43,254 nt of DNA. Origin: a virus. This document shows positions 4,380-41,417 of this stretch, one piece after another. Under the pieces are notes generated by a model. It had not been told where the DNA came from. It made no database searches and saw only the letters and a program-made list of their open reading frames with translations. The DNA is taken from IMG/VR virus record IMGVR_UViG_3300037587_000427, positions 1 through 43,254 of that record; one strand, 5' to 3'. The stretch's first letter is position 1. Each line of letters opens with the position of its first letter. A program made the translations under genes and the position numbers.

Positions 4380-4727
4380 ATGAGCGGCAGTATATCCGCA
4401 GCGACGTTAGCCAAGGCCCTGAGACCCTTCGATGTCGTCCAGAATAAGGAAGGCAGCGTCGGCTACATCTGTGAGGTGCAGCTGAACAGTTGCCAGGTGG
4501 GATTCGACGACCAGGTATCCTACGCTGTTAATTGGCTAGTAACAGCACCCGGCGACAATAAGCACGCCTGGTGGGACCACGACGATCTGTACCCGAAAGG
4601 CAACTTAATGGAGTCTATTGCAACGCAGATGTGCCACCCGTTTGGGCAGTCCCGCGAGAACGTGGGCCGCTTATTTACTGCTGGTCGTGAGAAACCCGCC
4701 GGACATGAGCGCCTCGGTCATGAGTGA
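4380..4727 (+). CDS. Small soluble protein, first gene of the second accessory operon, 115 aa
   Basis: The in-frame ATG at 4293 lies upstream of the promoter, so the ATG at 4380 is chosen; its ribosome site is weak (GCAGGC). The core has a beta-rich look, with alternating strands VGYICEVQLNSCQVGF and YAVNWLVTAPGD followed by HAWWDHDDLYP. This resembles the small SH3-like phage domains that end in a Trp-Trp acidic motif. The C terminus is His/Arg-rich. No function can be assigned. As the promoter-proximal gene it should be strongly expressed early. Confidence 0.7.
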   Translation: MSGSISAATLAKALRPFDVVQNKEGSVGYICEVQLNSCQVGFDDQVSYAVNWLVTAPGDNKHAWWDHDDLYPKGNLMESIATQMCHPFGQSRENVGRLFTAGREKPAGHERLGHE

Positions 4728-7270: not shown

Positions 7271-7412
7271 CTCCCTGATATCCCCGCCACCGTTTGCCGT
7301 TCTCTACAGGGCGGCTCTGGCCGTCTACCTCAAGCCGGCTTCGTCCGTCCTCCTGTACACGGCATAGTCCCTCAAGTTATAAAGCCGGCCTCGTTATAAC
7401 CCCAAGTTGTGC

Positions 7413-7439
7413 TTGTACCACTTTGTACCGGTTTGTGCC
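7413..7439 (+). repeat. Three helically phased 10-bp direct repeats (TTGTACC/TTGTGCC)
   Basis: TTGTACC at 7413-7419, TTGTACC at 7423-7429 and TTGTGCC at 7433-7439 repeat at exactly ten-base intervals. A fourth copy of the first unit, extended to CTTGTACCACTTT, occurs at 7506-7518. One-turn spacing suggests cooperative protein binding on one DNA face, as for iterons or operator arrays. Confidence 0.7.
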
Positions 7440-7712
7440 GCTTTTTAAATAAAAGTGACACGCCCGCAGGCCCCGAACCCCCTAGTCTGGGAGCATTCTG
7501 TGTCACTTGTACCACTTTATTTTCTAAACTATTTAAAAGTAATATATAAATATAGAATACCGTATTAAGGACGGTATACAGGATATATACCTGCGAGAAT
7601 TAGAAAGTTCTCGAAATAAAGTGGTCCAAGTGACACACTATCCCCACAGCCCCCGTGCTTATTGGCCTGCAAGCGTGTCACTTTTCCTCAGAAAGCGGCA
7701 CAAACCGGCACA
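7424..7712. repeat. Large interrupted palindrome centred at 7568, with iterated AAGTGACAC motif
   Basis: Outer arms 7424-7472 and 7664-7712 are inverted copies: 20 of 21 matched over the outer part, a divergent six-base patch, then 13 matched bases (AAAAGTGACACGC), two mismatches and seven more. Inner arms 7500-7521 and 7615-7636 match at 21 of 22. Both pairs share the same symmetry axis, 7568. Near the axis are hairpins ATACCGT/ACGGTAT (7557-7577), CAGG/CCTG (7580-7594 region) and CGAGAA/TTCTCG (7594-7613 region). AAGTGACAC occurs in both orientations at 7453, 7500, 7628 and 7675. Confidence 0.9.
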
Positions 7713-7926
7713 TTATACGCCTAAGTCCTTGATTTAATTGACCTTTGCGGCTTTTTAGCACAAGTGACACGCTTTCCCCGCATCGATGACACACTCTTAT
7801 CCCCGGTATCTGTGGCGAGTCTGGACGGCTGCGCTCCTCGTTCGGCTTTATCTGTCCGGCTTTCTAACCTGCTAGCTCTCCGGGTACCGTCTCAACCGGC
7901 TTACCAGGACGGCTGCTGCAGCCCAG

Positions 7927-7956
7927 TTGGCAGGCTGTCTGTATATGATGTACACT
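7927..7956 (+). promoter_or_regulatory. Probable promoter before the terminase genes
   Basis: TTGGCA (7927-7932), an 18-base spacer and TACACT (7951-7956), 31 bases before the ATG at 7988. The downstream sequence ACTCACCA also follows the -10 of the site at 10385, so the two may be related late promoters. Moderate match only. Confidence 0.45.
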
Positions 7957-7987
7957 CACCAGCAACACAACTTTCAGGATTTTGGAA

Positions 7988-8680
7988 ATGGCGAGCGGGG
8001 CCGGCGTGAGCACATTGGAGGCCGACAAGGCTGCAGAGGTCGATAGAATTTATGCCCTCTATGAGAAGCTGACAGAGTTAGAGCAGCGTCTCCTCCACCA
8101 TAAGGACAAGGGCTGCGGTCTGACCGACTCGTATCTGAAAGCCTGCATGGACCTTATGCGGAAGCCTGGCAAGTATCCACACACGGCATCGTATGACATA
8201 TTCCGACGACCCAAGGTCCAGAAGTATCGGCAGGAGTCCAGGAAGGTCCAGAAATTTGCCGGGTTCAAGTCTGATATTATGTCCCGGGAAGAGATGGCCC
8301 AGAGGCTCACTGTATTAGCCAGGGGGCGGATCCGTGACGTCATTGGCACATCGGTCATCGCATCGTCTGACGGCCAGGTACTCGGTCGCAGGCTGCTTGT
8401 GGGTGACCTGGAAGACATGACCGACGAGCAGGCCTCTCTCATCCGTGAGATCAAGGACACCAAGGACGGCATCTCTATCAAGATATACGACTCCCAGTCG
8501 GCCATGAAACAGCTTTCCGACATACAGGGCTATAATGCTCCGGACGTGCAAGAAATCCACATGGGTGGCGGTGCTGCCCGGCCTGACATCCTACTGCCAG
8601 ACAAGGAAGCCGACGCGGCCATGAAAGCACTGGAACCGGATGTCCCGGATCCCGGTGAACCGGAGCTCCCCGAGTCATGA
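7988..8680 (+). CDS. terS: Terminase small subunit
   Basis: AGGA lies eight bases before the ATG; a TTG two codons upstream is less likely. The product (230 aa) fits Terminase_2-like small subunits: an N-terminal helical DNA-recognition part with LKACMDLMRKPGKYP and DIFRRPKVQKYRQESR (the 'ml-x-P-x-V-x-x-Y' region), then a helix MSREEMAQRLTVLARGRIRD. A middle beta segment and an acidic, Pro-rich C-terminal tail follow, probably contacting the large subunit. It overlaps the large subunit gene by four bases and sits directly after the symmetric non-coding element, which could be its recognition site. The assignment rests on pattern and position. Confidence 0.8.
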   Translation: MASGAGVSTLEADKAAEVDRIYALYEKLTELEQRLLHHKDKGCGLTDSYLKACMDLMRKPGKYPHTASYDIFRRPKVQKYRQESRKVQKFAGFKSDIMSREEMAQRLTVLARGRIRDVIGTSVIASSDGQVLGRRLLVGDLEDMTDEQASLIREIKDTKDGISIKIYDSQSAMKQLSDIQGYNAPDVQEIHMGGGAARPDILLPDKEADAAMKALEPDVPDPGEPELPES

Positions 8681-10419: not shown

Positions 10420-11781
10420 ATGTTCGAATTTTTCCGCAAGCCTAAACGACAGATTATCGACGTCAACTCGCAGACCCAGCAGATGGGCTTTTTCATGAAT
10501 GCGATCACCCACACGATCCGCCGTCTCACCAGCAGCAGGGGGCAGGGCGTCTCACCCGATGGAAAGCGCGATTATAATGAGCTATTCGGATACGGGGAGC
10601 ATCTCGCATACCGGAATTACTTCGCCATGTATCGGCGGGGCGGTATTGCGAAAAACATTGTCGACGCGCCAGCCAAGGCATGCTGGAGAGACCGGCCTAC
10701 TATCCGAGACGGCGACACGGCCATCTTGGTCGAAGAGATGCAAGCCCTGGAAAACCTCGGCATGCTGCGGAAGTTGGAACGGGCGGACATTATGAACCGG
10801 GTCGGCTCGTTCGCTGTCCTCATGGTTATGGTTCCGGATGGCATGGAGCTCGATCAGCCTGTGGGGTCTGCGTCCAATCTGGACCAAGTGTCATTTATGC
10901 CATTCAACGAGGACGGGGTCACGATCTCCGAATGGGACGTCGATGTCGTCTCCCGGCGTTACGGAATGCCCAAGATGTACGAACTACGGACGACCGATAT
11001 GCAGGGCAACAGCCGGCAGCGGATCTCGACGATACCCGTCAAGGTTCACTGGTCCCGGGTGGTCCACATGGCCGAGGACTCGCTCGATTCCGACTTCGAG
11101 GGCAGCTCAGCACTGGAGGCACCCTGGAACAACCTAATCGATTTGATCAAAGTCAGGGGCGGATCAGGAGAGGCTTTTTTCCGAAATGCTCGCCGGGTAT
11201 TCACCCTCACAGCCCGGGACAAAGTCAAGCTGGACGACGAAGCGATGACCGCCCTCCAGGAGGAAGCGGACGAGTTTTCCAATGGGTGGCGAGACGTTAT
11301 GCGCCTGCAGGGTGTGGAAGCCGATCAGCTACCTGTCGAGATTGCCAGCCCGCGTGATTCCTTTGACACCATTATGGAGGAGCTGGCCGGTATTACTCGC
11401 CAGCCCATCCGCAGGCTGCTGGGTAAAGGCGCCGGACAGCTGGCAGGGTCTGAGGACCGGCTGGCCTGGAATAGTGTGATCGATGACCGGCAGCGGACAG
11501 AATGTTCTGACTGGCTGCTGGGCAGTGAGGCCATCCCGGGCGTGCTGAGCATCCTCGCAGAGGCGGGGCTCATCAAATTAGGTACCACGCCACGAGTAGA
11601 CTGGCCGGTCCAGGAGGCGCTCTCTGCTATTGAGGAGGCCAAGATCGCGGATACTCGGGCCAGTGCTATTTCTAAGCTGGTGACGGCGTCGGATGTAGCT
11701 GGAGAGACCATCGATCTGAAAGAGGCCAGCATCGCGGTCGGTTTGCCGAGTGCTATCTTTGACCAGGAGGAGATCGACTAA
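10420..11781 (+). CDS. Portal protein (DUF1073 family)
   Basis: The portal forms the dodecameric ring at one capsid vertex through which DNA passes. The 453-aa product has DUF1073-type features: YRNYFAMYRRGGIAKNIVDA near residue 65-85 (the region preceding the usual W-R motif, here CWRDRPT), a central beta-rich part with VHWSRVVHM, ITRQPIRRLLGKGAGQLAGS in the C-terminal half, and a final helical stretch ending at an overlap with the next gene. The ATG at 10420 follows AAGGCGG; starting upstream at 10381 would place the start on the promoter. The order terminase-portal-MuF supports the role. Automated tools may label this family 'anti-CBASS Acb1-like'; context argues against that. Confidence 0.9.
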   Translation: MFEFFRKPKRQIIDVNSQTQQMGFFMNAITHTIRRLTSSRGQGVSPDGKRDYNELFGYGEHLAYRNYFAMYRRGGIAKNIVDAPAKACWRDRPTIRDGDTAILVEEMQALENLGMLRKLERADIMNRVGSFAVLMVMVPDGMELDQPVGSASNLDQVSFMPFNEDGVTISEWDVDVVSRRYGMPKMYELRTTDMQGNSRQRISTIPVKVHWSRVVHMAEDSLDSDFEGSSALEAPWNNLIDLIKVRGGSGEAFFRNARRVFTLTARDKVKLDDEAMTALQEEADEFSNGWRDVMRLQGVEADQLPVEIASPRDSFDTIMEELAGITRQPIRRLLGKGAGQLAGSEDRLAWNSVIDDRQRTECSDWLLGSEAIPGVLSILAEAGLIKLGTTPRVDWPVQEALSAIEEAKIADTRASAISKLVTASDVAGETIDLKEASIAVGLPSAIFDQEEID

Positions 11782-37175: not shown

Positions 37176-38297
37176 ATGGCAGAGATAATCCTTTACACCG
37201 AACCGGCTCGAATGATCTTTACCAACCTGGTAAAGCCCCGACCTCCTGAGAACGGCGAGGCCGGGCGCCACAAGTATGGCGTGTTCATGGGCTTCCCTAA
37301 AACGAGCATAAACCCGATCAGTGGCCAGCAGTCAGACGGTTGCGGTCCTATCCTGCAGGCGCTGGACCAGGTCTGCCAGCAGGAGTTCGGCGTGCCGTAT
37401 GCCACCGTCAGAGATGGCCAGGCGGGCGTCCAGTTCCCGACAAAAATTATGGACGGCGACGCGATGGAGTTGGACACCCAGACCAATTTGATGAAAGTCA
37501 ACGACCGAAAGGCGGGCTACTGGTTACTGAGTGCTAAGCGTGCGGCGGAGGATGACTCGGACCCGAGTGATTCCGCAGGCGCATATCGCCCAGGTACGGC
37601 CGTTGCACTGCCCACTCCGGGGACGCCTTGTCCGCCAGCGGATATTTATGCCGGCTGCTGGGCGGTCTGTGAGATCCGAGTGGCAGCGTACACCTCAAAG
37701 ACCGGTAACCGCCGGGTTTGTGCGGTGTACCTTAATAATGTAATGAAGTGCTACGAAGACAATCCGCTGTCCTCTGGTGGCGGTCACCTTGCATCGACGA
37801 CGACATCGTTTGCGAATATCAACGTCGTCGGAGCTAACGCCCAGGGGACTGGCGGAATGGCCGGCATGCAGCCGCAGCAGCCGCAGCAGTACCAACAGCC
37901 GCCAGCTCAGACGCCTCAGCAAATGCAGCCAGCTCAGACGCCTCAGCAAATGCAGCCGCAGCAACAGCCTGCCCAGCAGCCGCAGCAAATGCAGCCTCAG
38001 CAACAGCCTGCCCAGCAGCCGCAGCAAATGCAGCCTCAGCAAATGCAGCCGCAAATGCAGCCGCAAATGCAGCCGCAAATGCAGCCGCAACAGCAGCCAG
38101 CTCAGACGCCTCAGCAGCAGCAGCCAGCTCAGACGCCTCAGCAGCAGCAGCAGCCAGCTCAGACGCCTCAGCAGCAGCCGCAAATGCCATCGACCAACTT
38201 CACCCAGCCGCAGACTCCTGGTGTGGACCCAGTGCAGCAGCCACAGGCTCAGCAGTACGAGCCGATGCCTGGCCAGCCACGAATGCCCGGCCAGTAG
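37176..38297 (+). CDS. DUF2815-like putative ssDNA-binding protein with long Gln/Pro-rich tail
   Basis: TTGGAG lies before the ATG at 37176. Residues 1-225 resemble DUF2815 OB-fold-type proteins: RMIFTNLVKPRPPENGEAGR near the N terminus, KYGVFMGFPKTS, then ADIYAGCWAVCEIRVAAYTS and RRVCAVYLNNVMKCYED (about 156-194). Residues about 231-373 are almost only Gln, Pro, Met, Ala and Thr (repeats of PQQM and AQTPQQ). Bacterial SSBs have a disordered tail ending in an acidic tip; this tail is far longer and lacks that tip. It lies between two nuclease genes. Confidence 0.8.
   Translation: MAEIILYTEPARMIFTNLVKPRPPENGEAGRHKYGVFMGFPKTSINPISGQQSDGCGPILQALDQVCQQEFGVPYATVRDGQAGVQFPTKIMDGDAMELDTQTNLMKVNDRKAGYWLLSAKRAAEDDSDPSDSAGAYRPGTAVALPTPGTPCPPADIYAGCWAVCEIRVAAYTSKTGNRRVCAVYLNNVMKCYEDNPLSSGGGHLASTTTSFANINVVGANAQGTGGMAGMQPQQPQQYQQPPAQTPQQMQPAQTPQQMQPQQQPAQQPQQMQPQQQPAQQPQQMQPQQMQPQMQPQMQPQMQPQQQPAQTPQQQQPAQTPQQQQQPAQTPQQQPQMPSTNFTQPQTPGVDPVQQPQAQQYEPMPGQPRMPGQ
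37866..38190 (+). repeat. CAG/CCG-rich tandem repeat array encoding the Gln/Pro tail
   Basis: The array contains five copies of a 19-mer beginning CAGCTCAGACG and ending CCTCAGCA, at 37903, 37930, 38098, 38125 and 38155, with periods of 27 to 30 where adjacent. There are also about four copies of a 12-base unit (ATGCAGCCGCAA) around 38044-38090. All units are multiples of three, so copy-number change keeps the frame. Confidence 0.85.
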
Positions 38298-38960: not shown

Positions 38961-41417
38961 GTGCTCCCAGATTATAATCAGATAGCGAATTTTATTACCT
39001 CGCTGACCGGTAACGTACAGACCCCGGTGGCGTGGCAGTACATCTATGACCCTGACAAAAAGTACCAGGGCAATCCGACCTTTACGGCGGACCTGGCGAC
39101 TGCATGGCCGTCTATCCAGGACGCACAGGCGAAACAGTTCGGCGTATTTATCACCATTAACCGGACCGATGGCCGAGGCCGTAAGCTGGAGAATATTACC
39201 GGGATCCGGGCAATTTTTGCAGACTGGGACGGAACGATCGAGCCGATCTGGACAGTCCAGCCACATTTGATAAACCGTCGTAGCCCAATTCAGGGGCACG
39301 CCTACTGGCTGGCCGACAATATCGCGCTGTCAGAATTTGGGGAACTGCAGCGCCGGATCGCGTTCTCTGCAGGTACCGACCGAAGCATCATAAACCTGGA
39401 CCGTGTCATGCGGGTACCGGGTACCTGGCACTTCAAGGACCCGTCCAACCCTCAGCAGTACCGCAACGAGCTGGACGTCTCGACGATGTACCCGAGAATC
39501 ACAGCAGCCGAGGCGCGTGCAGCGTTCCCCATTGCTGCCAGCTTGATGGAAGAGTATGAGCGACTGAGCAAGGGCCACGACATCCGGGAAACCGAGGCCG
39601 GCCTGGAGGACACCCCCGAGCGGGTCGCCAGATACCAGGGTTATTTGAAGACAGCCGCACCGGTTGCCGTCGATGGATCCGGAAACGCTCAGCAGACAGT
39701 TATGTCCGTCGCTGCGATGGGCCGGGACATGGGTCTCACGGTTGAAAAAGTAACCGAGATGATGGAGTCGGTCTACGATCCACGCTGCCAGCCCCCTTGG
39801 GTGTCTACCGGCGAGCTGGGTTTATTCGAGCGGTTGGTGAGCAATGCCTACCGGTACCCACAGAACGCTGCAGGGTGCCGCACAACGGAGGCCGTTTTTA
39901 CTGAGGCCGTGGCGAAAAAATGGGGCGGCAATTTTCCTGCACCCCTGGACGGCTGGGAGAAAAACTCGGAACGCAAGCCACCGGATCCGGACACGGGTAT
40001 CCAAAAAATATACGAGACAGTTGACGAGACTGGCGCCTTCCTGGAGCTCATGATCGACAACAAGACACCCGCCTGGGATAAGGCCCGCATATTTCTGCTG
40101 GTCAATTATCCGGAGAGCCGGCTGCTCCACATGGACAAAACATTTTACCGGTTCGATGGTCGTATCTGGGAGGCCCTGGACGACGAGGACATCGATGCCA
40201 AAATCGGCATGTACTTTGCAGACCACCGGCTCCCCCCGAATCAGATCAAGGGGATCTTTGACAGCCTGCGTCGGATGACTCACCGGTCCGTCGTGCCGAA
40301 TGGCAGCTGGCTGGATGGGACCGATGCGTCAGACGTCGCCATATTCGAGAACGGTATCATCGACCTCTCAGACGGATCGATGGCCCTGAAAGAGCACACC
40401 CCCGAATTATTCAAATTAAACGGACTCGACTACGCCCACGAACCAGCGGCCCAGTGCCCGACCTGGCTGGCGTTTTTGGAATCCATCTGGCCAAACGATC
40501 CGGACTTACATAATCAGCTGCAGGAGTGGCTCGGGTATCTTATGGTTGCGGACACCACTCAGCAGAAATGCGCCATCTTTGTGGGAAAACCCCGCGCCGG
40601 TAAAGGTACCATTACCCGGGTCATCCAGCAGCTGCTCGGCGAGTTCAACATGTGCGGCCCCGGGCTGGAGGAGCTGGTCAAGTCGCCCATCCTGGACCTG
40701 ATGTCGAGCAAACTGGTGGCGATGATTCCAGACGCCCGGTCGGTTACCCCCCACATGAGGCAGCAAGTCCTCAGTAAATTGCTAGCCATCATCGGCGAGG
40801 ACTCGATCTCCTTCGACAGGAAGTACAAGGGCGCTAAAACGATGCTCATGCCGAGCCGGATTATTCTGACGGCCAACGACATGCCGTCGTTTATCGATCC
40901 GTCCGGCGCACTGGCTGCCCGCATGCTGGTCTTCCCGTTCTTTCTCACCTTCCTGGGCCGCGAGGACAGAACGCTGTCCCGTAAGCTGTCCATGGAGATT
41001 GAAGGGATCGCCACATGGGCACTGGCTGGCCTGATCCGGTTGCGTGCTTCCGGAGTATTCACCGAGGCCCAGAGTGGCCGCGACGAGCTCGACATGCTGT
41101 CCGAAGATATGAGCCCGCTCAGTCAATTTATCGACTCGTTCTGTGTCGTGGAGACAGACGCCTGGATCTCAATCGAGGCCCTGTACTCCGGTTATATCCG
41201 TTGGACCCAGCTGGAGGGCATCCGTTCACCGATGAGCAAGACGGCACTATCCAAAGGCCTGCGATCCAGCCCCCTGCCGGTCACCCCGGGACGAGAGAAA
41301 GGCGGCAAGCGTGATCGAGGGTTCCATGGCCTGGCGCTGACCGACGATGCCGTCGCCGCACAAGGACCGAATAAAGTAATCCCGTTCCCCACGCCAGCCC
41401 CACCGACAGCCGGATAA
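38961..41417 (+). CDS. Primase-helicase (AEP-like primase with D5/SF3-type helicase)
   Basis: GTG start with GAGGTG upstream. The 818-aa product has an N-terminal primase of archaeo-eukaryotic type: IRAIFADWDG with Asp88/Asp90, HAYWLAD (His113) and RVMRVPGTWHFKD (148-160). A linker follows, then a D5-like region and the helicase with Walker A GKPRAGKGT (542-550), LVAMIPDARS (Walker B region) and a sensor-type stretch MLMPSRIILTANDMPSFI (arginine and Asn). This one protein primes and unwinds for the polymerase encoded divergently. Motifs are complete. Confidence 0.9.
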   Translation: MLPDYNQIANFITSLTGNVQTPVAWQYIYDPDKKYQGNPTFTADLATAWPSIQDAQAKQFGVFITINRTDGRGRKLENITGIRAIFADWDGTIEPIWTVQPHLINRRSPIQGHAYWLADNIALSEFGELQRRIAFSAGTDRSIINLDRVMRVPGTWHFKDPSNPQQYRNELDVSTMYPRITAAEARAAFPIAASLMEEYERLSKGHDIRETEAGLEDTPERVARYQGYLKTAAPVAVDGSGNAQQTVMSVAAMGRDMGLTVEKVTEMMESVYDPRCQPPWVSTGELGLFERLVSNAYRYPQNAAGCRTTEAVFTEAVAKKWGGNFPAPLDGWEKNSERKPPDPDTGIQKIYETVDETGAFLELMIDNKTPAWDKARIFLLVNYPESRLLHMDKTFYRFDGRIWEALDDEDIDAKIGMYFADHRLPPNQIKGIFDSLRRMTHRSVVPNGSWLDGTDASDVAIFENGIIDLSDGSMALKEHTPELFKLNGLDYAHEPAAQCPTWLAFLESIWPNDPDLHNQLQEWLGYLMVADTTQQKCAIFVGKPRAGKGTITRVIQQLLGEFNMCGPGLEELVKSPILDLMSSKLVAMIPDARSVTPHMRQQVLSKLLAIIGEDSISFDRKYKGAKTMLMPSRIILTANDMPSFIDPSGALAARMLVFPFFLTFLGREDRTLSRKLSMEIEGIATWALAGLIRLRASGVFTEAQSGRDELDMLSEDMSPLSQFIDSFCVVETDAWISIEALYSGYIRWTQLEGIRSPMSKTALSKGLRSSPLPVTPGREKGGKRDRGFHGLALTDDAVAAQGPNKVIPFPTPAPPTAG

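Follow-up and report, generated by a model that had tools for sequence, protein, structure and literature searches.

The window analysed here is the entire IMG/VR virus record IMGVR_UViG_3300037587_000427 (43,254 nucleotides). Its two ends share 127 identical bp, and thus it closes as a complete circular map of 43,127 bp. No long reading frame spans the gap at 7271-7981, in which a large mirror-symmetric noncoding element lies. The first gene downstream is terS (7982-8680, plus strand; Pfam Terminase_2), so that the element is placed just before terS, as stated in an original prediction made from the sequence alone. With its short repeats (iterons), its AT-rich core and a site for integration host factor (IHF), the element (7413-7770) is described here as a putative replication origin, together with the primase-helicase that may serve it.

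Anatomy of the symmetric element

When all axes of the whole genome were scanned, 86 of 120 pairs at 30-150 bp from axis 7568 were complementary (z 10.9). The runner-up axis in the same genome had a z of 5.2, and the best axis among 60 Markov-1 genomes of the same composition reached 55 pairs. The dyad is real and non-random, and these figures agree with the earlier view that coincidence is implausible. The predicted arms are also present: the outer arms (7424-7472 and 7664-7712) match at 42 of 49 positions and the inner arms (7500-7521, GTGTCACTTGTACCACTTTATT, and 7615-7636) at 21 of 22, and both pairs share axis 7568 as their centre. The inverted-repeat finder that had been proposed as a check recovers them, in ungapped form, as a single merged pair (7424-7536/7600-7712; 75% complementary). 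The DNA between the inner arms is very AT-rich, as predicted; positions 7519-7617 are 74% AT, more than any other 99 bp of the genome, and are the proposed unwinding element. The three predicted local hairpins were found there (z -3.5), and a small hairpin of 21 nt (7557-7577; ATACCGT-loop-ACGGTAT) has the symmetry axis at its centre. As folded single-stranded DNA, the element far exceeds its shuffled versions in stability (z -14.9). An assembly artefact was considered and is unlikely, because the two halves of the element differ at many positions. A search of Rfam with the element gave no match, nor did direct DNA searches, those of the phage collection included.

The arms consist of arrays of words of about 10 bp that belong to a single family (AAGTGACAC, AAGTGGTAC, AAGCGGCAC) and are mostly placed as mirror images. 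The genome has five copies of AAGTGACAC, against 0.17 expected, and all lie within 7453-7770. In total, twelve sites of the family were recognised: five of AAGTGACAC, three of AAAGTGGTACAA (one with a mismatch), two of AAAGCGGCACAA, and two of AAACCGGYACAN. The far left is occupied by three minus-strand iterons at an exact spacing of 10 bp (7413-7444; AAAGTGGTACAA at 7413-7424, AAACCGGTACAA at 7423-7434, and AAAGCGGCACAA at 7433-7444), followed by a plus-strand AAGTGACAC (7453-7461) and by two abutting minus-strand iterons (7500-7518; AAGTGACAC at 7500-7508 and AAAGTGGTACAA at 7507-7518). On the other side of the core are two plus-strand iterons (7618-7636; AAAGTGGTCCAA at 7618-7629 and AAGTGACAC at 7628-7636), a minus-strand AAGTGACAC (7675-7683), and two plus-strand iterons at the far right, again with exact 10-bp spacing (7692-7713; AAAGCGGCACAA at 7692-7703 and AAACCGGCACAT at 7702-7713). 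Thus, the sites lie on the minus strand at left and on the plus strand at right except for one inverted site per arm (7453 and 7675), and they form two mostly opposed sets around the AT-rich core. The nonamer had been predicted to recur in both orientations at fixed mirror positions. This holds for four copies of AAGTGACAC (paired as 7453/7675 and 7500/7628), while the fifth, on the plus strand at 7762-7770, has no mirror copy. A perfect IHF consensus (AATCAAGGACTTA; 7722-7734, minus strand) is located at +160 from the axis, and the genome has only one other.

The candidate initiator and known origin systems

The proposed initiator is a protein of 818 amino acids (38961-41417, plus strand), predicted to consist of an AEP primase, an SF3/D5-type helicase and a C-terminal winged helix. 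Its score against TIGR01613, the P4-family phage/plasmid primase, is 138.6, above the curated cut-off of 108.7. A profile made from this protein and seven phage homologues (36-41% identical to the window protein) matched the primase-helicase of SaPI5, a Staphylococcus aureus pathogenicity island (SaPI), in the PDB (7ola/7om0; E 4e-20), and also 6zp9 (E 8e-7). In an AlphaFold2 model (mean pLDDT 77, pTM 0.47), residues 355-802 have the SaPI5 primase-helicase as their best VIA-align match (Z 27, 402 residues, root-mean-square deviation 7.9), while residues 1-190 match the primase-polymerase domain of cyanophage S-2L (Z 21.9, 176 residues, root-mean-square deviation 2.3). By Foldseek E-value, other viral PrimPol-helicases come first with SaPI5 close behind; the target-normalised TM-score is higher for SaPI5. 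The modelled C-terminal 100 residues comprise helices and then a beta hairpin, a predicted fold that is winged-helix-like. In pairwise comparisons of the window protein with the other full-length homologues, this C-terminal region is less conserved (29-38%) than the helicase core (39-50%).

It is known that the origins of Gram-negative phage-inducible chromosomal islands (PICIs) always have two iteron sets on either side of an AT-rich region, and that plasmids with pri-ori are maintained (PMC6092414). SaPI Rep helicases recognise iterons by their C-terminal domain and apparently bind as two hexamers, and the C-terminal domain of the D5-type helicase Cch2 of SCCmec (staphylococcal cassette chromosome mec) binds direct repeats, its helicase activity requiring an AAGTG iteron (PMC7581432). 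The window resembles the SaPI and PICI systems in that the putative initiator is a primase-helicase with a C-terminal domain predicted to bind DNA, and it is of the SaPI5 type, SaPI5 being the best helicase match by both the sequence profile and VIA-align. In contrast, the initiator gene of SaPIs and PICIs has the origin immediately at its 3' side, and these islands are satellites without full virion genes, whereas the window is a complete tailed phage of 43 kb that has genes for TerS, TerL and a virion structural protein. The strong large-scale dyad and the IHF site also set the window element apart. Since it lies neither directly 3' of the initiator gene nor on a satellite, I did not class it as a member of the SaPI/PICI group.

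Other systems are less similar. P4 has short type 1 repeats in both orientations, and its alpha primase-helicase belongs to the family after which TIGR01613 is named. However, ori and crr share the origin function in P4, the best long P4 dyad reaches only z 4.5-4.9, and a tblastn comparison of P4 with the window primase gave no match. The commonest window iteron starts with AAGTG, like the iteron needed by Cch2, although these five common letters may be a coincidence and the putative Cch2 origin has three direct repeats only, without a two-sided array. The lambda origin, with its iterons for the O protein beside AT-rich DNA, differs in having four direct iterons on one side only, inside gene O, in its host-supplied helicase and in the lack of a dyad.

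Recurrence in phages with related primase-helicases

Is this anatomy found in other phages? Relatives were sought through the primase-helicase family and not through the element. Among annotated phages, a dyad was found in Vibrio phage 1.055.O (L011; z 10.8), Shewanella phage 1/44 (L012; z 6.5), and Vibrio phages 2.096.O (L018; z 6.2) and 1.083.O (L019; z 6.4), in all of which the element is 5-7 kb from terS/terL. Four of the 38 viral-contig loci obtained with the primase profile (L024, L036, L039, and L044) have noncoding dyads with z of 7.6-9.9, and another (z 7.3) was found in record G004 (locus L145), reached through L042. The independent cases are fewer than those listed, since L011/L012, L018/L019, and L024/L039 are close relatives and L037 is a copy of L012. 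Several relatives have the element in a divergent intergenic region.

Each relative has its own word (TGTGCCAC, GTGTCACA, AAGTGTCACA, CCGTGGCA, or GCCCGTA). These private words were found by an unguided 7-mer count. GTGCCAC has 13 of its 18 genome copies inside the element of L011, and TGTCACA has 11 of 14 inside that of L018. The corresponding counts for L145 (AAGTGTC, 11 of 12) and L036 (CCGTGGC, 9 of 9) refer to the DNA examined. The private 7-mer of the window, GTGACAC, has five of its seven genome copies in the element. In most of these elements, the strand pattern of the word on one side of the axis nearly mirrors that on the other. Strict IHF sites number 19 within 250 bp of 14 axes, against 1.1 expected, and some of them lie at mirrored distances (+-83/147 in L011, +-146 in L036, and +-131 in L023).

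The same axis scan revealed no comparable dyad in lambda, P22, HK97, P4, or contigs L006-L009, where the top axes have z of 4.3-5.5; the top axis of P22 (z 5.5) is the arc/mnt operator. No dyad was found in the TerL relatives (L003-L009). The chromosomal homologues of the helicase half (L065-L144) have no comparably strong dyad, the best having a z of 6.4. In some of the chromosomal, prophage-like loci (L070 at 11419, L079 at 11490, L099 at 11415, and L078 at 5648), weaker mirrored repeats follow immediately after the 3' end of the primase gene, an arrangement like that of PICIs. L156 (G009; at 1553) and L152 (G007; at 4657), from phages with the same primase family, have strong AT-rich dyads that lack an iteron word. 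A TerS scan and a single-sequence primase scan of viral contigs found no relatives, and the palindromic pattern AAGTGGCACA...TGTGCCACTT matched two places, neither of which has the architecture. The cumulative GC skew of the window has its minimum near 8-9 kb and its maximum near 29.8 kb. An origin/terminus pair based on this skew was rejected for this phage, because the GC skew at third codon positions (GC3 skew) of same-strand genes is alike on both sides of the element; the skew minima in relatives are confounded by divergent genes.

A probable replication origin and its alternatives

The element is very probably the DNA replication origin of the phage, served by the phage's own primase-helicase in a self-loading-helicase mode like that of SaPIs and PICIs. 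As far as sequence can tell, this is indicated by the anatomy of the element, by the family and predicted fold of the initiator and by the finding of the same anatomy in other phages that have that initiator. From these I infer binding, melting, the start of replication, its bidirectionality and a role of IHF, the mechanism of binding and melting being supplied by the literature on the same protein family (SaPI Rep, Cch2, and Gram-negative PICIs). The iterons of about 10 bp would be bound by the C-terminal winged-helix domain of the primase-helicase, and the left and right arrays, being in opposite orientation, would each seat one helicase assembly. IHF may bend the flank, and the central AT-rich DNA between the arrays would melt. 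Two hexamers would then be loaded on opposite strands, giving two forks that leave in opposite directions, with primers probably made by the fused AEP domain. The mirror symmetry may thus reflect two-sided loading for bidirectional replication.

Several observations weigh against this assignment. There are no DnaA boxes near the element, and the window's sole strict IHF site there has no mirror partner. The end of the primase gene (41417) is 9.3 kb from axis 7568 on the circular map. Plus-strand genes have a GC3 skew of -0.050 on the right side of the element and of -0.008 on its left side (p 0.60). In several homologues, L010 and L014 among them, the DNA scanned contained no such element, and the dyads of L021, L152, L156, and L015 have no clear iteron word and were not counted as the same element. 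The dyad of L021 (Vibrio phage 2.044.O, 43444-43684; z 10.3) consists of two mirrored sigma-70-like promoters between divergent operons. Furthermore, Vibrio phage 13VT501A (L013) has opposed arrays of CATTTTTC/GAAAAATG repeats with IHF sites directly upstream of terS (10780-11266) and no detectable homologue of the window primase. Thus, the layout may also occur outside this initiator family; the L013 array is possibly an origin with a different initiator.

Besides a replication origin, the original prediction had offered a packaging site, a double-sided switch and a miniature inverted-repeat element, and these three are now disfavoured. The switch would be an array of operators that separates early from late genes, binds a phage regulator and acts in both directions. 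The element does lie between the early/accessory block and terS, the iterons could serve as operators, the L021 dyad arms carry mirrored TTGACA-N17-AATACT promoters, and the divergent intergenic location in several relatives would suit such a role. In the window, however, the flanking genes all point in the same direction and no paired promoters were seen, the only promoter-like matches nearby being two downstream (7927 and 8022) and a weak one on the minus strand of the core. The association with the primase-helicase and the presence of about 12 sites in 350 bp, with the most AT-rich DNA in their midst, fit an origin better, and a switch is improbable. Recognition by TerS at a cos or pac site is slightly less probable still. 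Lambda cos has repeated sites and an IHF site, which the element recalls, and the element of the window is directly upstream of terS; but the distance of 5-7 kb in the four annotated relatives argues against packaging, as does the fact that the relatives' elements were found by way of the primase-helicase, with which the element goes. Neither the cos phages lambda and HK97 nor the pac phage P22 has a comparable dyad. Moreover, phage 9NA, for which pac headful packaging was reported (PMC4153490), is among the named TerL relatives, and the window record closes as a circle. Finally, two long imperfect inverted arms enclosing noncoding DNA could suggest a miniature inverted-repeat transposable element or another mobile insertion. 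Such an insertion can be practically discounted: there is one copy in the genome and no match in the phage collection, the relatives keep the anatomy while the repeat words differ, and the arms are arrays of short sites rather than terminal repeats.

If the replication-origin reading is extended to the relatives, a general design can be proposed, although only tentatively. Tailed phages with SaPI5-like primase-helicases might have origins in which two iteron arrays mirror each other, the IHF sites likewise, with an unwinding element at the centre. The word would be read by a fast-evolving C-terminal winged helix, and so the origin code would be private to each phage. These phages and the satellite islands might then have one origin system in common, which the satellites either took from phages or exploit. 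Earlier descriptions of the layout came mainly from small satellite elements, parasites of phages, and here it is seen in tailed phages; no description of the dyad layout in tailed phages was found in the literature searched, the coverage of which was incomplete. To my knowledge, the origins of most tailed phages are unmapped. If the proposed design is true, origins could be located in many phages by a dyad and a private word paired with a primase-helicase, and the design would bear on the source of the satellites' replication module. The initiator-iteron pairs are also material for studying how the C-terminal domain reads DNA.

Family matches identified a tailed-phage gene set on the plus strand of the window (terS, terL, and the virion structural protein). 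The minus strand encodes a DNA polymerase of family A and a helicase of the SF2 type. No close relatives of the phage were found in the phage collection. An early protein of 303 amino acids (379-1290) has a start resembling an ATP pyrophosphatase of the PAPS-reductase/DndC kind, with only a weak NCBIfam match (E 0.003). Besides the primase-helicase, the phage encodes a single-strand DNA-binding protein of the Enc34 type. At 37690-38190, the part of its gene for the C-terminal half is an in-frame Q/P/M-rich repeat array. A tandem repeat is annotated in the corresponding gene of Sashavirus Sasha.
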